A DNA stretch of 64,000 nucleotides from Rhizobium sp. R635 (GTDB lineage: Bacteria; Pseudomonadota; Alphaproteobacteria; Rhizobiales; Rhizobiaceae). Positions 14,182-26,971 of the stretch are shown here, one piece after another (within the stretch, counting starts at the first letter, position 1; the number at the start of each line of letters is the position of its first letter). Position numbers and translations under genes: made by a program. The notes beneath the pieces are model-generated. The model saw only the letters and a program-made list of their open reading frames with translations. It had not been told where the DNA came from and made no database searches. Location: the NCBI RefSeq assembly GCF_002211285.1, contig NZ_LOKX01000009.1:1-64000 (forward strand). Reading direction: 5' to 3'.

Positions 14182-16215
14182 TCAGAGGCGCTGGCCGGAA
14201 AGGCGTTTGCGGTGCAGCTCTTCGGCGTTCGGCAGCACATCCTTCGGCAGGCCGAAGATCTGGCCCGGGCGGATGCGATCGGGGTCGGTGATCTTGTCCT
14301 CATTGGCGATGTAGATCGTCGTATAGCGAACGCCGAGCCCATAGGTGCGGCGCGAAATCTGCCACAACGTATCGCCGCGGCGGATGATGACGGCCGCGTT
14401 GTTTGCCGTCAGCGGCGCCTGCTCGATCGTCTTCGGCTCGTTGCTGGCCGCATCGTTTGCGGCGGGTGCCGCCGGCGCGGGCTGAGCGGTGAGTTCGGCG
14501 ATCAGGGCGCCGAGCCGCTCGATTGCGGCGCCGACGGATTTCGCATCCTTCGGCAGGCCCTGAAGCAGTGTCAGCGCATTCGAGGCCGTCCGCGAGGCGG
14601 AGCCGGATGCCTGCTTGAAAGCCTCGGACGCATCGGTTTCCGGCCGGAAGTCGGTGACGGAGCGCAGGGCAAATTCCGTTGCCGAGCGCGCAGCTGCAAG
14701 CTGTTCGACGCCCGGTTGTTTGCCGTCCGCAAACAGACCCTTCAGCAGGCCGAAGGCCTTGCCGGCTTCGGCCTTGCGCTTGCCGAGTTCGCCTTCGTCG
14801 AGGGGGACCAGCGAAGCGGCGCCGTTCGCGTCGGCGGGAGCCGATTGCGCGGCGACCCTCACCTGATCGCCCGCCGGACGGTTGAAGTTCACGGCGGCGC
14901 GCACGATCACCTTGCCCGTGGGGTCGACGACATCGACGCGGATCTTGTGGTCGCCGACCGAGAGCGCCGCCACGCCGTCGATGACGAAATGGCCGTCTGA
15001 GCCGGCCGTGTCCTGGCCGATGAGGTTGTCGTCGGCATAGCCGAGGACCTTGGCATTGGCGCGGGTCGTGCCGGCAATGAAGATCTTGTTACCTTCGATC
15101 TCGACGGCGTTGACCATCACATCAGGCGCGACTGCCTTGTCGGGTGCGGCCGTGCCGGGAGCGGCGGTCTCGCTATTGGCGCTGCCGGAAGAGGCTTCGG
15201 TCGGGTTCGGTGTCTGCAGCGCCAGCTCGCCGGTCGGCGCGGCGGCCGCAGGAGCCCCAGCCGCAGCCGAATTGTCGGCAGGCGACGGATTGGAGGCATC
15301 GGCGACTTCCGTTTCACCCTTCGGCGCGGTGATGATGCGGCTCGCCGCGCCAGGTTTGGAAACCATGGCGAGCAGATTGGCGCCGTTGCCGTCCTTCGGC
15401 ACGGAAACGGTCGCGACCTCTTCGGAAAGCGTGCTCTTGCCATCCTTGCCCGTGACCTTCAGCACGAGCTGGTGATCGCCTGCGGGAAGGGGATTGTCGA
15501 GGACGGCGGCGAAATCGCCGCTCGCATCGACATTGGCCGTCGTCACCACCTTGTCACCGTCGAGCACCTCGAGCTTGCCGTTCGGTTCGGCGGAGCCGGC
15601 AATCACGGTGGAACCGTCAGGTTCGACGCGCAAGATGTCGAAGGCCGGAAGCTTCGGGCCGGTATTCTGCGCCGGCGTATTCGCCGCAGAGGCGGCAGGC
15701 TCTGGCGCACCGGTCAGCGCTGCCTCGGCCTTGGCGACGGCGGCAAGCGCATCGGCGGCATTCTCAGGGAGCGCCTGAACGATGGCGAGCGCCTTCGCGC
15801 CGCCGTCCTTGGCCTTGGCGGCTACGGTCTGGGTGGCGGGATCGACGCCGTCGGGAACGACAAAATCGGCAAGCGCGGTCAATGCTTTGACGGCCTTGGT
15901 CTTGGCGGCGGTGAAGACGTCGATGGCCGGCCCCTTGCCGTCGGCAAACAGTGTCCTAAGTTCGCTGAGGGATGTGCCGGCATCGGCGGAGAGGCGGCCT
16001 ACCTGTTCGGACACGGCAGCCGAGTCCGTTACCGCGGAGCGTGATGTCTTTGCCGCCTCGTTAACCGTGTTCTTGAGTTCCGTGCTCGCTTGGTTGATGG
16101 CATCGCCGACTTTGGTTGCATCGCCGCCGATGCGCGGCATGACGAAAAACACCATCAGTAAGATTGCGATTACGAGCACTGCAAGGGCCAGCAAGCCGGC
16201 ACGGTTTTTCATCAT
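14182..16215 (-). CDS. Membrane-anchored LysM protein with Ig-like domains
   Basis: A 677-residue protein: a single N-terminal membrane anchor (about 5-28, ending VMPRIGG), a long Ala-rich region, two beta-sandwich (bacterial Ig-like) modules (about 195-280 and 365-445) linked by an Ala/Pro/Ser/Thr-rich segment, a helical region, and a C-terminal LysM domain (about 605-660) with RRGDTLWQISRRTYG and RIRPGQIF. LysM modules bind peptidoglycan, so it probably spans the periplasm from the inner membrane to the wall. Start set at ATG 16215, with GGGAG properly spaced; the longer reading uses TTG. Similar rhizobial proteins are annotated only as LysM peptidoglycan-binding proteins. Confidence 0.85.
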   Translation of the reverse strand: MMKNRAGLLALAVLVIAILLMVFFVMPRIGGDATKVGDAINQASTELKNTVNEAAKTSRSAVTDSAAVSEQVGRLSADAGTSLSELRTLFADGKGPAIDVFTAAKTKAVKALTALADFVVPDGVDPATQTVAAKAKDGGAKALAIVQALPENAADALAAVAKAEAALTGAPEPAASAANTPAQNTGPKLPAFDILRVEPDGSTVIAGSAEPNGKLEVLDGDKVVTTANVDASGDFAAVLDNPLPAGDHQLVLKVTGKDGKSTLSEEVATVSVPKDGNGANLLAMVSKPGAASRIITAPKGETEVADASNPSPADNSAAAGAPAAAAPTGELALQTPNPTEASSGSANSETAAPGTAAPDKAVAPDVMVNAVEIEGNKIFIAGTTRANAKVLGYADDNLIGQDTAGSDGHFVIDGVAALSVGDHKIRVDVVDPTGKVIVRAAVNFNRPAGDQVRVAAQSAPADANGAASLVPLDEGELGKRKAEAGKAFGLLKGLFADGKQPGVEQLAAARSATEFALRSVTDFRPETDASEAFKQASGSASRTASNALTLLQGLPKDAKSVGAAIERLGALIAELTAQPAPAAPAANDAASNEPKTIEQAPLTANNAAVIIRRGDTLWQISRRTYGLGVRYTTIYIANEDKITDPDRIRPGQIFGLPKDVLPNAEELHRKRLSGQRL

Positions 16216-16322
16216 TATGTCTCCCAAGGCGGCAATTTGCCGTAGTAACCAAAATTGCTAGCGATTCCCGTTGCTTTTCACAAGCATTCAAAGCAATTAG
16301 GCAAGCTAGGCACGCTGCTTTT

Positions 16323-16341
16323 CAGTCAATTTTCTTGACTG
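16323..16341. promoter_or_regulatory. Inverted repeat between the LysM and LOG genes
   Basis: CAGTCAA (16323-16329) and TTGACTG (16335-16341) form a perfect seven-base inverted repeat in the 155-base divergent spacer, 30 bases before the LOG-family start. TTGACT on each strand could be a -35 box for each gene, or the pair could be an operator. No strong -10 is visible. Confidence 0.3.
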
Positions 16342-16370
16342 CATTGAAATGGAATAGTTGTTTCGCCTCT

Positions 16371-16994
16371 ATGACCGAGCAATCTGTATCGATTCGATCC
16401 ATCTGCGTTTACTGCGGCTCCAGGCCGGGACGCGATCCCTCGCACATGGCGGCCGGGCGTGCTCTCGGAAGAGAGATCGCCGAATACGGCCTGCGCCTCG
16501 TCTATGGCGGGGGCACCAAAGGCATCATGGGCGCGGTGGCAAGCGGCGTGCTTTCAGGCGGCGGTCAGGTCACCGGCATCATTCCCGAATTCCTGATCGA
16601 TATGGAAGCGACGCGCCACTCGCTCGGTCAGCTCAACGAACTCATTGTAACTCCTGACATGCATGCGCGCAAACATACGATGTTCGAGCGCTCCGATGCC
16701 TTCGTCGCCCTGCCGGGCGGCATCGGCACGCTGGAGGAAATCGTCGAGATCATGACCTGGGCACAGCTCGGCCGCCATGAAAAGCCGATGGTTTTTGCCA
16801 ACATCAACGGCTTCTGGGATCCGATGATGGAGCTGCTGCGTCATATGACCGGCGAAGGCTTCGTCCACACCGCCCATCGGGTGCAGCCTTTGGTCGTCGA
16901 CGATGTCTCCGGCATCATTCCGGCGATCATGGCCCAGGCCGCCCAGCTCGCCGCCGATCGTGACGGCGAAGATGAGGTGATTTCCAAAATGTAG
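16371..16994 (+). CDS. LOG-family nucleotide phosphoribohydrolase (TIGR00730)
   Basis: A 207-residue Rossmann-like protein. Key motifs are SICVYCGSRPG near the N-terminus, VYGGGTKGIMG (phosphate binding) and the signature ALPGGIGTLEEIVEIMTW (PGGxGTxxE), plus HARKHTMFERSDAF with the conserved Arg. Family members cleave ribose-5-phosphate from nucleoside monophosphates; plant LOG enzymes activate cytokinins this way, and bacterial ones act on AMP or cytokinin nucleotides. Start set at ATG 16371 by family N-terminus; the frame is open much further upstream without coding character. It is divergent from the LysM gene and convergent with the LysR gene. Confidence 0.88.
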   Translation: MTEQSVSIRSICVYCGSRPGRDPSHMAAGRALGREIAEYGLRLVYGGGTKGIMGAVASGVLSGGGQVTGIIPEFLIDMEATRHSLGQLNELIVTPDMHARKHTMFERSDAFVALPGGIGTLEEIVEIMTWAQLGRHEKPMVFANINGFWDPMMELLRHMTGEGFVHTAHRVQPLVVDDVSGIIPAIMAQAAQLAADRDGEDEVISKM

Positions 16995-17039: not shown

Positions 17040-17975
17040 TCAGCTATAGGCTGAAACAAGCTCAGTCACCTGATGCCGCATCCACCGGTTGGCGGGATCA
17101 TTGTCGCTTGCCGCCGACCAGACCATCGATATCGGGCTCACCGTCAAATCGAGGGGAACCTCGGCGACCGCCAAGCCGAACAGGCCGGCATAGCGCTTCA
17201 CGATTCTGGTCGGCAGGGTCGCGATCAGGGGCGCTTCGAGGACGGCGGTCAGCACGGTCAGGAATTCCGGCGCAGCCACCGACACGTCGAGTCGCACGTT
17301 GATCCGCTTCAACGCATCATCGATGCATCCTTCGATGGCGTCCTTCTGGGAAACCAGGGCATGCTTCAGGCCGACATAGCTGTCGCGGTCCAAAGTTTCG
17401 GGAAGATCAAGAAGCTTCGGATTGTAGCAACACATCAGCGATTGCTCGAACAGCAGGTTCCGCCGGTGTCTGTTGTTGCCGTCATTGTAGCAGCCGACGC
17501 CGAGGTCGATGATATTGTCGTCCAGGAGCTTATGGACCAGCTCGGGGTCGACCGCTCGCGCAAGCACTTTGATACCGGGGGCCGTCTCGCTCAACATAGC
17601 GGCGAGACGCGGCACGAGCAGCACCTCAAGCTCGCTGGAAAAGCCGATGCGGAATATCTGCTCAGCCCGGCCCGGCTCGAAGGTCGCCGGCGTTACGATC
17701 GCCTGCTGCGTGCGGGTGAGTATCTGCTCCACGGCTTCGGCGAAACGCAGCGCCCGATGGGTCGGCTGCATGACCTGGCCGACACGCACGAACAGCTCGT
17801 CCTGAAGCAAGATCCGTAGAGTGCCGAGATTATGGCTCATGGCGGGCTGCTGGATTTTCAGCCGGACAGCCGCCTTCGTCACGCTCCGCTCCTTCATGAG
17901 GGCATCGAAGGCGACGAGGAGGTTGAGGTCGAAAGACCACAAATTGAAATGATCGATGGAGACAATTTCATTCAT
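17040..17975 (-). CDS. LysR-family transcriptional regulator
   Basis: A 311-residue LTTR: winged helix-turn-helix at about 17-75 (LVAFDALMKERSVTKAA, then QPAMSHNLGTLR) and an effector-binding domain from about 100 to the end. The extended N-terminus before FDLNLLVAF resembles the NodD/NahR-like branch. It is divergent from the metallo-beta-lactamase-fold gene across 87 bases. That is the classic LTTR arrangement, predicting control of the downstream three-gene cassette and of itself. The inducer is unknown. Two neighbouring Cys (LMCCYN) lie in the ligand domain. Confidence 0.9.
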   Translation of the reverse strand: MNEIVSIDHFNLWSFDLNLLVAFDALMKERSVTKAAVRLKIQQPAMSHNLGTLRILLQDELFVRVGQVMQPTHRALRFAEAVEQILTRTQQAIVTPATFEPGRAEQIFRIGFSSELEVLLVPRLAAMLSETAPGIKVLARAVDPELVHKLLDDNIIDLGVGCYNDGNNRHRRNLLFEQSLMCCYNPKLLDLPETLDRDSYVGLKHALVSQKDAIEGCIDDALKRINVRLDVSVAAPEFLTVLTAVLEAPLIATLPTRIVKRYAGLFGLAVAEVPLDLTVSPISMVWSAASDNDPANRWMRHQVTELVSAYS

Positions 17976-18000
17976 CGATTTGATCGTTGCATGAATTGTC
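17961..18000. promoter_or_regulatory. Near-perfect inverted repeat at the LysR start, candidate operator
   Basis: GACAATTTCAT (17961-17971) and ATGAATTGTC (17991-18000) are inverted copies apart from one extra T. The left arm overlaps codons 2-5 of the LysR gene; the right arm is upstream of the start on the plus side. The location between the divergent regulator and its likely target is right for an LTTR autoregulatory site. Binding is inferred. Confidence 0.4.
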
Positions 18001-18062
18001 CCTACTGTCCATAGCCATCAGACAGCGCTGTCCCGGTTCAGTTCAACTCGAAAGGAAATTCC

Positions 18063-18956
18063 ATGAGCGATCTTGGAAAGGAATATCGTATTGCCGGCGT
18101 GACGGTCAGAAAGGTGCTGGAGCAGTATCTGCACAACGTTCCGCCCTCATTTCTCTACCCGACCGCCGGATCTGAGGAAATCAAGGCGGTTGAGCCACGT
18201 CTTTCCGCCATCGATATGGAAGAGGGCCGCGATGCCCTTGTGGTGAGCATCCATAGCTGGCTTGTCAGGACGCCCGACCACGTCATCCTCATCGACACGG
18301 GTTCGGGTAACGATAAGGAAAGACCGCGCAATCTCGCTTTCCATCAGCAGACCCTCCCGTTTCTCCACAGGTTGCGCCAGGCAGGTGTCGAGCCCGAAGA
18401 CGTCGACTTCGTCATAAATACCCATCTCCACGTCGATCATTCCGGCTGGAATACCGTTCTCGAAGACGGAAGATGGATCCCCACTTTCAAAAACGCACGC
18501 TACATCTTCCCACGCGCCGAGCAGGAATATTATGCGTCGACGGCAAGCCACAACGACGTCAACATTCCCAGCGCCGGCGTCTATGAAGACAGCGTGCGAC
18601 CAGTGATCGAGGCGGGTCTTGCCGATTTCATCGACGGTGCAGGCGGTCGTTTCCTGGATCACTTTACCTTCTTGCCGACGCCTGGGCACAGCATCGGCCA
18701 TATGTCCGTTCTGCTGGAGGCGGACAATCAAGCGGCAATCTTCGCCGGCGATGTCATGCATCATCCGATCCAGGTGGAACGGCCCGACCTCAACACGGTC
18801 TTCTGCGAATTCCTGGATCAGGCTACCCAGTCCAGACGGCGCGTCCTCGAACTCGCGGCCGATAATCGCGCCATGTACTTCTCCACGCACTTTCCAGGTT
18901 CGTCTGCTGGATATGTAACCCGCGACGGCGAAAAATTCAGGTGGTCCTATGTCTGA
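18063..18956 (+). CDS. Metallo-beta-lactamase-fold hydrolase (lactonase-like)
   Basis: A 297-residue soluble enzyme with the full two-metal site: THLHVDH (His121, His123, Asp125, His126), PGHS (His209), GDVMHH (Asp230) and STHFP (His276). This pattern is shared with N-acyl-homoserine lactonases and other ring-opening or ester hydrolases of the fold. No signal peptide. The start at 18063 has AAGGAAA well placed. The next gene, an alpha/beta hydrolase, overlaps it by eight bases, so the two are coupled. It is the first gene of a cassette under the divergent LysR regulator. A lactone, ester or amide substrate is likely; a specific one cannot be read from sequence. Confidence 0.85.
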   Translation: MSDLGKEYRIAGVTVRKVLEQYLHNVPPSFLYPTAGSEEIKAVEPRLSAIDMEEGRDALVVSIHSWLVRTPDHVILIDTGSGNDKERPRNLAFHQQTLPFLHRLRQAGVEPEDVDFVINTHLHVDHSGWNTVLEDGRWIPTFKNARYIFPRAEQEYYASTASHNDVNIPSAGVYEDSVRPVIEAGLADFIDGAGGRFLDHFTFLPTPGHSIGHMSVLLEADNQAAIFAGDVMHHPIQVERPDLNTVFCEFLDQATQSRRRVLELAADNRAMYFSTHFPGSSAGYVTRDGEKFRWSYV

Positions 18957-19956
18957 CAACAAGCTCGCATCTTCAGCTTTTGACGCCGGCGAAATCGTAT
19001 TCGACGAGCATTACGTTGATAGCGGAACCGATGGCATCAAGCTCTATATCCGCAATAAGCGAAGGAAGGACCACAAAGTCTTTCTCGCGGGGAAAACGAT
19101 CGTGATGGTGCATGGGGCAACCTTCTCGTCCGGAAGTCTTTACGACGTTCCCTTCAACGGGATGTCCTTCATCGACTTCCTCGCTCATCGAGGCTTCGAT
19201 GTCTTTGCGGTTGATGTCCGGGGCTATGGAAGATCGACCCGCCCGCCAGAGATGCAGGCGGCGCCCGATCTCAACCCGCCTCTTGTCGCCACAGACACCG
19301 GCGTCACCGACTTCGCAACGGCCATCGATTTCGTCCTTCGACTTCGCGACCTCAAGAACGTTAACGTCTTTGCAATGTCGTGGGGCGGTACCGTGGCCGG
19401 TGCATATGCTGCGCGCAACCCCGACAAGGTCGTCAAGCTCTCCTTGCTCGCGCCGCAATGGCTCAGTGACGTTGCCATCCCCATCGATCAGGGCGGCGCG
19501 CTCGGCTCCTACAGGCTTGTTCCCGTCCATGCGGCCCTGGCGCGTTGGCTAGGCACCGCACCCGAATACGCGCGTGAACGTCTTGTGCCTGAGGGCTGGT
19601 TCGACCTCTGGGCCGCACTGACCCTCTCGGAGGAGCCGTCGCAGGCCGACAGAGAGCAAGGCAAACTCCGGGCCACCAACGGGCCGATCCAGGACATCCG
19701 CACCTACTGGAGAGCTGGAGCGCCCTATTATCGGCCAAGCGAGATTCGCGCGCCGGTGCTGTTGTTGCACGGCGAATGGGACATCGACGTCCCGCTCGAG
19801 CTAGCGCGGACCTATTTCGAGCAACTGACCGGTGCCTCCTACAGGCGATGGGTGGAAATCGGGGAGGTGACGCATCTCGCCCTCATGGAGAGCCACCGCA
19901 TGCAGGTCTATTCCGAGGTTGCCCGCTTCTTCGAGGAAGATTTCAAACCGGAATAG
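18949..19956 (+). CDS. Alpha/beta hydrolase
   Basis: A 335-residue alpha/beta-hydrolase-fold enzyme. Visible elements are the oxyanion-hole region VHGATFSSGS, DVRGYGRS, the nucleophile elbow FAMSWGGT (Ser144, with Ala in place of the usual first Gly), the acid region GEWDIDVP (Asp277 or Asp279) and the catalytic His308 in GEVTHLAL. No signal peptide. It overlaps the MBL-fold gene by eight bases and is followed after 92 bases by a Gate-domain membrane protein. The pairing suggests sequential hydrolysis of one compound, for example ring opening then ester or amide cleavage (inference). Substrate unknown. Confidence 0.86.
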   Translation: MSDNKLASSAFDAGEIVFDEHYVDSGTDGIKLYIRNKRRKDHKVFLAGKTIVMVHGATFSSGSLYDVPFNGMSFIDFLAHRGFDVFAVDVRGYGRSTRPPEMQAAPDLNPPLVATDTGVTDFATAIDFVLRLRDLKNVNVFAMSWGGTVAGAYAARNPDKVVKLSLLAPQWLSDVAIPIDQGGALGSYRLVPVHAALARWLGTAPEYARERLVPEGWFDLWAALTLSEEPSQADREQGKLRATNGPIQDIRTYWRAGAPYYRPSEIRAPVLLLHGEWDIDVPLELARTYFEQLTGASYRRWVEIGEVTHLALMESHRMQVYSEVARFFEEDFKPE

Positions 19957-20048
19957 AGTCTGAACGACGTGGCTCCGGGATCGAATCCGGAGCCCGCTTC
20001 CTCCATCAAGCCGGCCGCGCGTTCACGTCCATCAAACCAGTCGTTCCC

Positions 20049-20981
20049 ATGATAATTCTGATCACCGCAATCCTGGATGCCGGACGAAGTGCCGTCGACA
20101 TCGCCATATTCACCTTTCTGCCGCTAATGATCGTGACCTTTTCGCTGATGCGCTACCTCGAGGGCATGAGCGCACTGCGATCAATCGCCGGCAAGGCCAA
20201 CCTGCTCTTCAGACTTTTCGGCCTGGACGGTTTTGGGGCCTTGGCGATCATCCAGCTCAGCCTCGTAAGTTCGGCTGCCCCGGTTGCTGCCCTGTCGCTG
20301 ATGGCGCACAAAAGAACATCGGATAAATTTATGGCCGCCGCCTTTGCGGCGGTGCTTGCGGCTGCGCCGGCAAATGCCAGTTTCCCGCTCGCAAGTATCG
20401 GTATCGATCCCGGCTTGATCACAATAAACGGCGTTTGCGGAGCGCTCGTTGCGTCCACTCTCGCCTGTTGGATCGTTGGGCGCCGTTCCTTGCCCGGAAA
20501 GCCCTCTTCCTGCGACAGGGCGGAGGACCACGACGTGACAAGGCGCGATCTGCTGGCGGCGATAAATCGCGGTGGCGCAGATGCTATGGGCGTCGTTTCT
20601 GCGATCCTGCCGGTGCTCGTGATCTCATTGGCTCTTGTAAGGCTTACCGAAAGCACAGGCGCACTTTCCGCCTTCACGTCCGCTGCGCAGCCATTGCTTC
20701 AGCTGCTCGGCGCCTCGCAGCAGGATGTCCTCTTCCTGCTCACAAAGTGCCTGGCAGGATCGAGCGCAACGGTCACCCTGCTGCTTAACGCCCACAAGGA
20801 ACTGAGCCTTCCGCCGGAGAAAATCATTCACGGATCCGCATTTCTGCTGAACCCTCTCGATCTTCCCGGCCTATCCATTCTTGTCGCTTCAGTGCCGGCG
20901 CTCCGCTCGGTGGCGAGGGTTGCCATCTTGAGCGCATTGACCGGAATTCTCGTCCGCACAGCGCTGCTATCCTGGCTTTGA
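20049..20981 (+). CDS. Gate-domain (nucleoside-recognition) membrane protein
   Basis: A 310-residue polytopic inner-membrane protein with about eight hydrophobic segments in two halves. Each half has a Gate-like stretch with Gly/Ala/Ser-rich helices (LSLVSSAAPVAALSLMAHKR in the first, CLAGSSATVTLLLNAHKE in the second), suggesting an internal duplication. The two halves are joined by a charged cytoplasmic loop (about 150-180). This resembles nucleoside-recognition/SpmA-SpmB-like proteins, presumed transporters. Start at ATG 20049, because the frame upstream is open but non-coding. As last gene of the LysR cassette it would import the substrate or export a product (inference). Confidence 0.7.
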   Translation: MIILITAILDAGRSAVDIAIFTFLPLMIVTFSLMRYLEGMSALRSIAGKANLLFRLFGLDGFGALAIIQLSLVSSAAPVAALSLMAHKRTSDKFMAAAFAAVLAAAPANASFPLASIGIDPGLITINGVCGALVASTLACWIVGRRSLPGKPSSCDRAEDHDVTRRDLLAAINRGGADAMGVVSAILPVLVISLALVRLTESTGALSAFTSAAQPLLQLLGASQQDVLFLLTKCLAGSSATVTLLLNAHKELSLPPEKIIHGSAFLLNPLDLPGLSILVASVPALRSVARVAILSALTGILVRTALLSWL

Positions 20982-21012: not shown

Positions 21013-21930
21013 CTACATTCTTCCGCGGCTCCCCCGCAGCATCGACCAGCTATAGAGGAACAGTCCCGCCCAGATCAGCGCGAACGCGATCATGCGCGCC
21101 GTGCCGAGCGGCTCCTGGAAGACGAAAACCGCAATCAGGAAGATCATCGTCGGCGCGATATACTGCATGATGCCGATCGTCGAGAGCTTCAGGAGCTTGG
21201 CGCCATTGGCATAGATCATCAGCGGTACGGCGGTGATGACGCCGCAACCGAGCAGCAGCGTCGTGTCGGCAAGGCCGGTGCGGTAGAAATGGCCCTCACC
21301 GGTGGCGAATTCGAGATAGAGGATGTAGAGGAGGGCCGGTCCGCTGAGGAGCAGCACTTCGAGGAAAAATCCCTGGTTCGGCCCGAGCGGCAGCGTCTTG
21401 CGGAAGAGGGCATAGAACCCCCAGGAGATCGCCAGCGTCAGCGCCACCCATGGAATGCCGCCGCTATCGAAGGCAAGAATGGCGACGGCAAGGGCCGCAA
21501 GCGCGATCGCGCCGATCTGCAGCGGCTGCAGCTTTTCCTTGAGGAGCACGGAGCCCAGAAAGATGCTGAACAGCGGATTGATGAAATAGCCGAGTGCGGC
21601 ATCGAGCGAATGGCCGGCGCCGATCGCCCAGACATAAGTGCCCCAGTTGACGGTGATCAGCGCCGCCGTCAAGGCACCCATCGCCAGCATGCGCGGAGAG
21701 CGCAGCGCGGTGCGGATATCCCCAGTGCGCCCGAGCACGATCAGCACGATGCCGGCGAGCGGCAGCGACCAGACGATGCGGTGCGCGATCACCTCGGCCG
21801 GCGGAATATGCGCCACCGCCTTCATGTAGATCGGCAGGAAGCCCCAAAGCAGATAGGCCGTCAGCGCGAAGGCGAAACCGCGCGGACTATCTTCGTTCTT
21901 GATCAGCGGAGCGGATACATCGGTCGACAT
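21013..21930 (-). CDS. rarD: RarD-type EamA (DMT) transporter
   Basis: A 305-residue inner-membrane protein with about ten helices in two EamA repeats. RarD-like features are the opening AYLLWGFLPIYMKAV, AHRIVWSLPL, and the conserved NWGTYVWAIGAGHSLDAALG and YIAPTMIFLIAVF segments. The DMT superfamily exports small metabolites; RarD's physiological substrate is not firmly known. It is convergent with the Gate-domain gene, 31 bases away, and appears to be a single-gene unit. Confidence 0.87.
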   Translation of the reverse strand: MSTDVSAPLIKNEDSPRGFAFALTAYLLWGFLPIYMKAVAHIPPAEVIAHRIVWSLPLAGIVLIVLGRTGDIRTALRSPRMLAMGALTAALITVNWGTYVWAIGAGHSLDAALGYFINPLFSIFLGSVLLKEKLQPLQIGAIALAALAVAILAFDSGGIPWVALTLAISWGFYALFRKTLPLGPNQGFFLEVLLLSGPALLYILYLEFATGEGHFYRTGLADTTLLLGCGVITAVPLMIYANGAKLLKLSTIGIMQYIAPTMIFLIAVFVFQEPLGTARMIAFALIWAGLFLYSWSMLRGSRGRM

Positions 21931-24578: not shown

Positions 24579-26003
<1,425 letters not shown>

Positions 26004-26014
<11 letters not shown>

Positions 26015-26498
26015 GGGTTTCTCCGAGTGGCCAGCTTTTCGTATCGTAGTCGGGATGCTGATGATTGCTTGCCGCGATTGCGTCTTCGCGGTCGGGCGTT
26101 TCAGGCTCTGGTTCCACCGGCAGGCCGTCGATCGCGTGAAACCAGGGCATCTTGCGGCCGGTATTCGATTGCATCACGGGCTTGACCGCATCGGGCTCGT
26201 CGAGCGAGCCGAGCGCGATGTTGATGAAGTCAGCATCGGGAATATCGTAGAAGAGCGGCGTGCCGCAATCGCCGCAGAAGCCGCGCCGCACGAGATCGGA
26301 GGAGCGGAACCATTTCGGTTCGCTACGCGTCAGTTCGAAATCCTGACGCTTGGCCGCTGCCAGCGGCAGGAAGTAGTTGCCGGCCGCTTTCTGGCACATG
26401 CGGCAGTGGCAGATGTGGGGATAGCCGAGTTCGCCGCGTGCGCGATAACGAACCGCGCCGCACTGGCATCCGCCGGTATGTTCCGCCGTGTTCGTCAA
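26004..26498 (-). CDS. GFA/CENP-V family zinc protein, copy 2 (TTG start)
   Basis: A 164-residue paralogue with the same zinc ligands: GGCQCGAVRYR, CHCRMCQKAAGN and FCGDCGTPLFY, ending near PDYDTKSWPLGE. No ATG is available before the first zinc motif. The only fitting start is TTG at 26496-26498, which overlaps the TGA of copy 3 in a TTGA arrangement, so translation is probably coupled. Function as for copy 1; divergence among the three copies suggests different substrates rather than recent duplication (inference). Confidence 0.85.
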
Positions 26499-26971
26499 GC
26501 GCGATCCTCCGGCGGCCAGACCGATGTATCGTGGTCCGGATGCTGATAGGAAATAAGCTCATGCAGGAAAGAGCCTGCCGTCAGATCCGCCTCGGTCCGC
26601 TCTCCAGGCAGTTCATGCAGATGATCGACGAAGCCGATCTTGCCTTCCACGCCCCACTGGATGGTCGGCGGCAGCTGCGACGGATCGTCGAATGCACCCG
26701 CGGCCACCGCCATCCCATCCGGCGCTTCATAGGTCAGCGGCGTGCCACAATCGCCACAGAAACCGCGCTCGACGAAATTGGAGGAACGGAAGGTCTTGCG
26801 TGTTCCCCGCGTCCATTCGAACTCCATGCCGCGCACGGAAACCAGCGGCGCATAATAGGCGCCGAACGCCTTCTGACACATGCGGCAATGACAGATCGAC
26901 GAATCCGGCGGCGTACCCCGCGCCCGAAACCGGATCGCCCCGCACTGGCAGCCGCCGGTGTAGACAGTCAT
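26495..26971 (-). CDS. GFA/CENP-V family zinc protein, copy 3 (first in operon)
   Basis: A 158-residue paralogue, transcribed first. Zinc ligands are in GGCQCGAIRFR, CHCRMCQKAFGA and FCGDCGTPLTY; the end carries [11 protein letters not shown]. The start at 26971 has a strong ribosome site (GGAGGAAAAA), unlike copy 2, which appears to rely on coupling. Upstream lies a large inverted repeat and then cysS on the same strand. Possible roles include detoxification of thiol adducts; not shown by sequence. Confidence 0.88.
   Translation of the reverse strand: MTVYTGGCQCGAIRFRARGTPPDSSICHCRMCQKAFGAYYAPLVSVRGMEFEWTRGTRKTFRSSNFVERGFCGDCGTPLTYEAPDGMAVAAGAFDDPSQLPPTIQWGVEGKIGFVDHLHELPGERTEADLTAGSFLHELISYQHPDHDTSVWPPEDRA

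Follow-up and report, generated by a model that had tools for sequence, protein, structure and literature searches.

The stretch of Rhizobium sp. R635 DNA analysed here (the window, 64,000 nucleotides) contains a small block in which a regulator gene is divergent from the genes of two hydrolases and a membrane protein. It raises the question of whether these four genes form one functional unit and, if so, which compound the unit handles. The block and its borders are arranged as follows:

16164..16994, plus strand: TIGR00730/LOG-like gene, left border of the slot, outside the cassette (184.8 bits, cut-off 96.35)
17040..17975, minus strand: LysR-type regulator, read divergently to the MBL, hydrolase and Gate genes (HTH_1 50.3 bits, LysR_substrate 72.2 bits)
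18006..18032, no strand: candidate LysR operator with three related half-sites and putative binding
18063..18956, plus strand: MBL-fold hydrolase nearest OPHC2 (Lactamase_B 92.6 bits)
18949..19956, plus strand: alpha/beta hydrolase (Abhydrolase_1 74.8 bits)
20049..20981, plus strand: Gate-domain membrane protein, predicted CNT-fold elevator transporter
21013..21930, minus strand: RarD-type EamA transporter, right border of the slot, outside the cassette (TIGR00688 194.8 bits, cut-off 130.15)

The four open reading frames, with the LysR gene divergent from three plus-strand genes, lie where a preliminary description had placed them, and their domain matches agree with it. The overlap of eight bases that it gave for the hydrolase and MBL genes is exact. 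The ATG at 20049 was chosen as the Gate gene start in place of the mechanical ORF start at 19776, and the true start of the LOG-like gene is probably well within the ORF given. The block 17040-20981 holds ORFs for these four proteins only, and no downstream catabolic gene appears within it in the ORF list. By eye, the DNA on both sides of it resembles core genome and carries housekeeping genes. Elsewhere in the window (25538-26971, minus strand), three consecutive similar small proteins (158, 164 and 158 aa) appear by eye to be GFA-like (glutathione-dependent formaldehyde-activating).

The presence of the block was followed in 148 Rhizobium genomes, one per species. Both border genes occur in all 148 and on one contig in each of them, the TIGR00730 gene with or without the cassette. 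The hydrolase gene was detected in 27 genomes (E 1e-40), its identity reaching 96% in named Rhizobium relatives. In 18 of the 27 carriers it lies between the border genes, which are then separated by 4015-4082 bp; in the remaining nine it is located elsewhere and the slot measures 17-757 bp. Of the 121 hydrolase-free genomes, 114 have a gap of no more than 150 bp, six one of 151-600 bp, and the last one of 1699 bp that is occupied by a different insert. Such full and near-empty gaps indicate that the block is present or absent at the slot as a whole. Within the 18 slot copies, the hydrolase and Gate genes were both found in every one, MBL in 14 and LysR in nine; since the gap is constant, the remaining MBL and LysR genes are presumably also present. 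All four genes were seen between both border genes in nine named loci (L004, L005, L007-L011, L015 and L023), which may be the same genomes as part of the 148-genome sample. Gain of the block would be a simpler explanation than loss because one copy is also found on a plasmid (L025). Neither an insertion sequence nor a target duplication was seen by eye at the empty sites of six genomes and at the window borders. In one genome (G343, locus L104, 943-2643) the slot carries a different 1.7-kb insert with an ORF resembling an ABC substrate-binding protein, so the slot may be a small insertion hot spot.

Linkage among the four genes is uneven. In the 21 genome loci found via the hydrolase, the MBL gene is always directly upstream of it (split over two frames in L006), and an orthologous LysR gene (59-96% identity) is divergent in 19. 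An unrelated LysR gene occupies the divergent position in L021 and lies one ORF further out in L019. The Gate gene is complete in 11 of these loci, a remnant in one (L014) and missing from nine. The frame split in MBL concerns a single strain (L006/L111) with intact neighbours and is either real or an assembly error. In a plasmid survey, 11 regions were opened among 23 records matching the hydrolase at 1e-20; hosts include Klebsiella, Pantoea, Gluconobacter, Agrobacterium vitis and Methylocella. MBL is directly upstream of the hydrolase in 10 of the 11 and a divergent LysR is annotated in seven, while an Azospirillum plasmid region has the hydrolase without either. A family sample gave the hydrolase in 12 of 247 genomes (1e-20), with MBL in five of the 12 loci and absent from seven (six at 27-34% identity, one a 41% fragment; the loci are short). 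In a phylum sample the hydrolase occurred in 9 of 398 genomes (1e-60), including seven copies in six genomes outside the genus. The two copies at 47-54% identity lie downstream of MBL and are accompanied by a divergent LysR-type gene (30% identity in L121; recognised solely by eye in L123); neither MBL nor LysR is near the five at 38-44%. MBL also accompanies the hydrolase in five other loci at 40-45% identity (L029, L030, L041, L055 and L110).

Pairwise distances between the genes were also compared. Those of MBL and the hydrolase correlate with r 0.93 over 29 loci that were picked for having both enzymes (none of 2000 permutations was as high), and those of the orthologous LysR correlate with both enzymes at 0.95-0.97 (17 loci). 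The correlations of the Gate protein are the weakest, r 0.54-0.71 versus 0.83-0.87 among the others (12 loci). Purifying selection acts on each of the four genes (median dN/dS 0.07, 0.10, 0.11 and 0.18, with the frameshifted MBL gene of strain L006 excluded; 0.11 for rarD), the highest value being that of Gate. MBL and the hydrolase are thus the core of the cassette, LysR is their usual partner and Gate is a partner only in one rhizobial group. Co-conservation of the four families, as implied by the preliminary description, held well for MBL and LysR and, for Gate, within that rhizobial group. The conservation of gene order and neighbours across species argues that the arrangement is more than chance.

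Several variants were encountered on the way. Locus L123 (767-4160) has a second MBL gene (40% identity) that is followed by an amidase-like ORF and has a LysR-like ORF divergent from it (both ORFs recognised by eye), which would fit an exchangeable second hydrolase. In L031 and L036, a sister MBL (45-47% identity) stands without the hydrolase in a row with FAD oxidoreductase, aconitase-like and isocitrate-lyase-like genes and a branched-chain ABC transporter, and an IclR regulator adjoins. A possible metagenomic MBL-hydrolase fusion of 467 residues (P0194) was set aside as a single sequence which ends abruptly and may be a read error.

Since the seven ligands of the MBL protein (H121, H123, D125, H126, H209, D230 and H276) are invariant in 21 aligned sequences, its two-metal site (HxHxDH plus H, D and H) is complete, in agreement with the preliminary description. 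We predict that it is a cytoplasmic lactonase or aryl-esterase; no export signal was obvious by eye in this protein or in the hydrolase. The solved relatives ranked by single sequence were OPHC2 (89 bits), the MBL protein 7y7u, the AHL lactonase AidC (4zo2, E 7e-15), 4xuk, a reconstructed dihydrocoumarin hydrolase and methyl parathion hydrolase. By profile, OPHC2 (4le6, E 4.7e-59), dihydrocoumarin hydrolase (5hif, 1.4e-55), 4xuk and methyl parathion hydrolase (1p9e, 4.2e-47) all ranked ahead of AidC (1.1e-35), and this profile includes two distant exported relatives, which may favour the group of OPHC2 and the methyl parathion and dihydrocoumarin hydrolases. The protein scored below every curated lactonase cut-off listed (bits against cut-off: AidB 90.6/360, AiiA 54.9/375, AttM (NF045700) 55.6/390, YtnP 66.7/425). 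His233 follows Asp230 by three residues and occupies what we take to be the position of Tyr194 in AiiA (AiiA numbering). In the OPHC2 study, dihydrocoumarin was the best substrate, none of the tested AHLs or oxo-lactones was hydrolysed and the Tyr typical of MBL lactonases was lacking (PMC3817169). By analogy, this substrate range and the missing Tyr make an aromatic lactone or aryl ester a more likely substrate than an AHL. The parallel with quorum quenching that had been drawn for this locus was not borne out by these scores and by the inactivity of OPHC2 on the AHLs tested, although AidC is also among the relatives.

In the alpha/beta hydrolase, S144, D278, D280 and H309 are invariant in 29 sequences, and the catalytic triad probably comprises Ser144, Asp278 (or Asp280) and His309. 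The model (pLDDT 85.7) has the alpha/beta fold, and the 50 Foldseek matches listed all look like alpha/beta hydrolases. The search was uninformative as to the substrate, thioesterases, esterases, epoxide hydrolases and dehalogenases being matched. No close solved relative was found (the profile search matched esterases and depolymerases, with E values of about 1e-10 at best), and the protein showed no acylase signature. It is predicted to perform the second hydrolytic step.

The Gate label given to the membrane protein by the preliminary description proved borderline by sequence, because PF07670, the only Pfam family matched (E <= 1e-3), reached 29.2 bits, just under its cut-off of 29.6. The predicted fold nonetheless speaks for a transporter. 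CNTs are known for nucleoside transport, and CNT-fold proteins are known as importers. The model, of moderate confidence (pLDDT 72.8), has the CNT fold, and the protein is accordingly predicted, from this model, to be a transporter; no CNT sequence family matched it. The gene occurs in 22 of the 148 genus genomes, in all 22 within the cassette (E 1e-8) and in 21 at full length, and it starts 94-111 bp beyond the last aligned base of the hydrolase (22 genomes, read by hand). Five of the 27 hydrolase-bearing genomes are without Gate and one has a remnant only. Of the 398 genomes in the phylum sample, 6 have Gate; in the three that lie outside the genus, the other cassette genes are missing within about 5 kb. 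Among the genome loci surveyed, Gate adjoins the MBL and hydrolase pair at no locus outside Rhizobium. The transporter is thus dispensable. Distant Gate relatives lie beside or near annotated oxidoreductases in five of 10 regions (a quinone/MDR-type oxidoreductase, an SDR-type dehydrogenase or an old-yellow-enzyme cluster) and beside this hydrolase in none; the other five have no such nameable neighbour apart from an SDR-like ORF seen by eye in L144. Judging from these neighbours, Gate may carry something else or act in export. On the Klebsiella plasmid pTK421_1 (L051, 1067-10568), a Gate relative (36% identity) is clustered with two MBL genes, LysR, old-yellow-enzyme, another alpha/beta hydrolase, a MIF-like tautomerase and a nitronate monooxygenase.

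The regulator has an HTH_1 and a LysR substrate domain and is divergent from its presumed target. The site between the divergent genes, TGTCC-N10-GACAGCGCTGTC, includes a perfect 12-bp palindrome (18021-18032). Among the 22 sequences compared, 12 of the 16 close loci carry this palindrome unchanged and the other four with a single mismatch, and six more distant loci lack it (5-6 mismatches). A search of the 5.8-Mb genome gave a single occurrence of TGTCC-N10-GACAGCGCTG; as this pattern was derived from the site itself, the result shows only that there is no other exact copy, which would suit a private regulator. A scan for sigma-70 promoters gave no match. The palindromic site is our candidate for the LysR operator.

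Other sources of information on function were less productive. Anti-phage defence was rejected, as none of the four proteins had a PADLOC match at E 1e-3; in PHROGs, the two enzymes gave only generic hydrolase or esterase matches and Gate none. The wider neighbourhoods did not disclose a substrate or a common pathway, because the neighbours of the LysR-MBL-hydrolase trio differ between loci: an aromatic amino acid lyase in L017, ORFs resembling a flavin monooxygenase and a reductase in L016 and one resembling an MFS transporter in L020 (the ORFs of L016 and L020 all below NCBIfam cut-offs). L026 and L027 have a GST-like gene and a 320-residue protein without a Pfam or NCBIfam match, annotated as gluconolaconase in L026.

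The evidence that the genes form a unit is strong, and that on its substrate is weak. We give slightly better than an even chance to a four-gene unit that senses a lactone or aryl ester via LysR, imports it via Gate and hydrolyses it in two steps. The LysR protein would switch the operon from the palindromic site, Gate would import the lactone-like compound, MBL would open the lactone or cut the aryl ester at its two-metal site, and the hydrolase would act on the opened MBL product or cleave a further ester or amide bond. The preliminary description had likewise proposed that a lactone, ester or amide is taken up or expelled and cleaved in two steps; a lactone or ester substrate and a transport step fit the nearest families, and the substrate class, the order of the steps and the direction of transport are inferred. 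More tentatively, the cassette could be an undescribed mobile catabolic module found in plant-associated bacteria: a minimal CNT-fold transporter would import a coumarin-like lactone from plants or microbes, and an OPHC2-like lactonase and a dedicated alpha/beta hydrolase would degrade it under a private LysR. On this view the widespread trio would be the older part, to which rhizobia added the transporter.

An unlikely alternative is detoxification: the enzymes would disarm a reactive lactone or aryl ester of plant, fungal or bacterial origin, Gate would export the product and nothing would be used as food. It would suit the patchy, mobile distribution, the block without downstream catabolic genes, the GST-like gene divergent beside two related core pairs and the oxidoreductase-type neighbours of distant Gate relatives, but half of those regions are without such neighbours, no GST belongs to this cassette and import is what the CNT fold suggests. 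Still less probable is quorum quenching or AHL catabolism by an MBL lactonase and an acylase of the alpha/beta hydrolase type. In the single-sequence ranking, AidC comes third among the kinds of solved relative, ahead of the dihydrocoumarin and methyl parathion hydrolases, and L123, outside the genus, pairs a related MBL with amidase-like and LysR-like ORFs (by eye). However, the profile reverses this order, the scores are far under the AidB, AttM, AiiA and YtnP cut-offs, His233 stands at the presumed Tyr194 position and the hydrolase has no acylase signature; OPHC2, the top relative, is without the lactonase Tyr and was inactive on the AHLs tested (PMC3817169). We assign the same small probability to the trio being one system with which Gate merely co-travels, handling an unrelated substrate, which would be compatible with the other readings. 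The many lineages with the trio or pair but without Gate, its weakest distance correlations and its highest dN/dS agree with this. On the other side, Gate in the genus sample is confined to the cassette, under purifying selection and almost always of full length.

The cassette was also compared with known systems. The OPHC2, methyl parathion hydrolase and dihydrocoumarin hydrolase group matches MBL by profile over nearly the full length and has the complete two-metal site in common with it, but is distant from it, and here the MBL gene shares its operon with the gene of another hydrolase, LysR being divergent; the AHL lactonase AidC is a related MBL protein below OPHC2 in both searches. BlcABC is the gamma-butyrolactone operon of Agrobacterium, with BlcR as its IclR-type regulator. 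The parallel with BlcABC in the preliminary description extends to the presence, in a rhizobial relative, of a lactonase-type MBL within a small cassette that seems to be regulated, and is not supported beyond that: the AttM-type score is far below its cut-off, the semialdehyde and alcohol dehydrogenases of the BlcA/BlcB type are absent from this block, and LysR replaces the IclR-type regulator. Compared with the CNTs (SLC28; CNTnw, vcCNT, CNT3), Gate aligns only from about residue 90 of CNTnw and vcCNT onward, at 10-14% identity, and the sole nucleotide-related neighbour is the LOG-like border gene, which is independent of cassette presence. LysR-MBL pairs on Agrobacterium fabrum pAt (L057) and Tistrella pTM2 (L058) have a LysR about 50% identical and divergent from MBL, but their MBL proteins are only 22-23% identical with an N-terminal extension resembling an export signal, and no relative of the window hydrolase lies within 5 kb on each side (tblastn E 1e-3); an annotated enterochelin esterase adjoins the pair in L058. 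The layout of regulator, enzymes and transporter is thus of an ordinary kind, and this combination was not found described in the literature searched, where none of the titles and abstract beginnings listed names the gene set. OPHC2 and methyl parathion hydrolase have been studied mainly for organophosphate breakdown, and the cassette could give their relatives a natural function; it would also provide a testable cargo for Gate/CNT-fold proteins. As a defined four-gene unit that is present or absent, it offers a way of asking which lactones and aryl esters rhizobia meet around roots.
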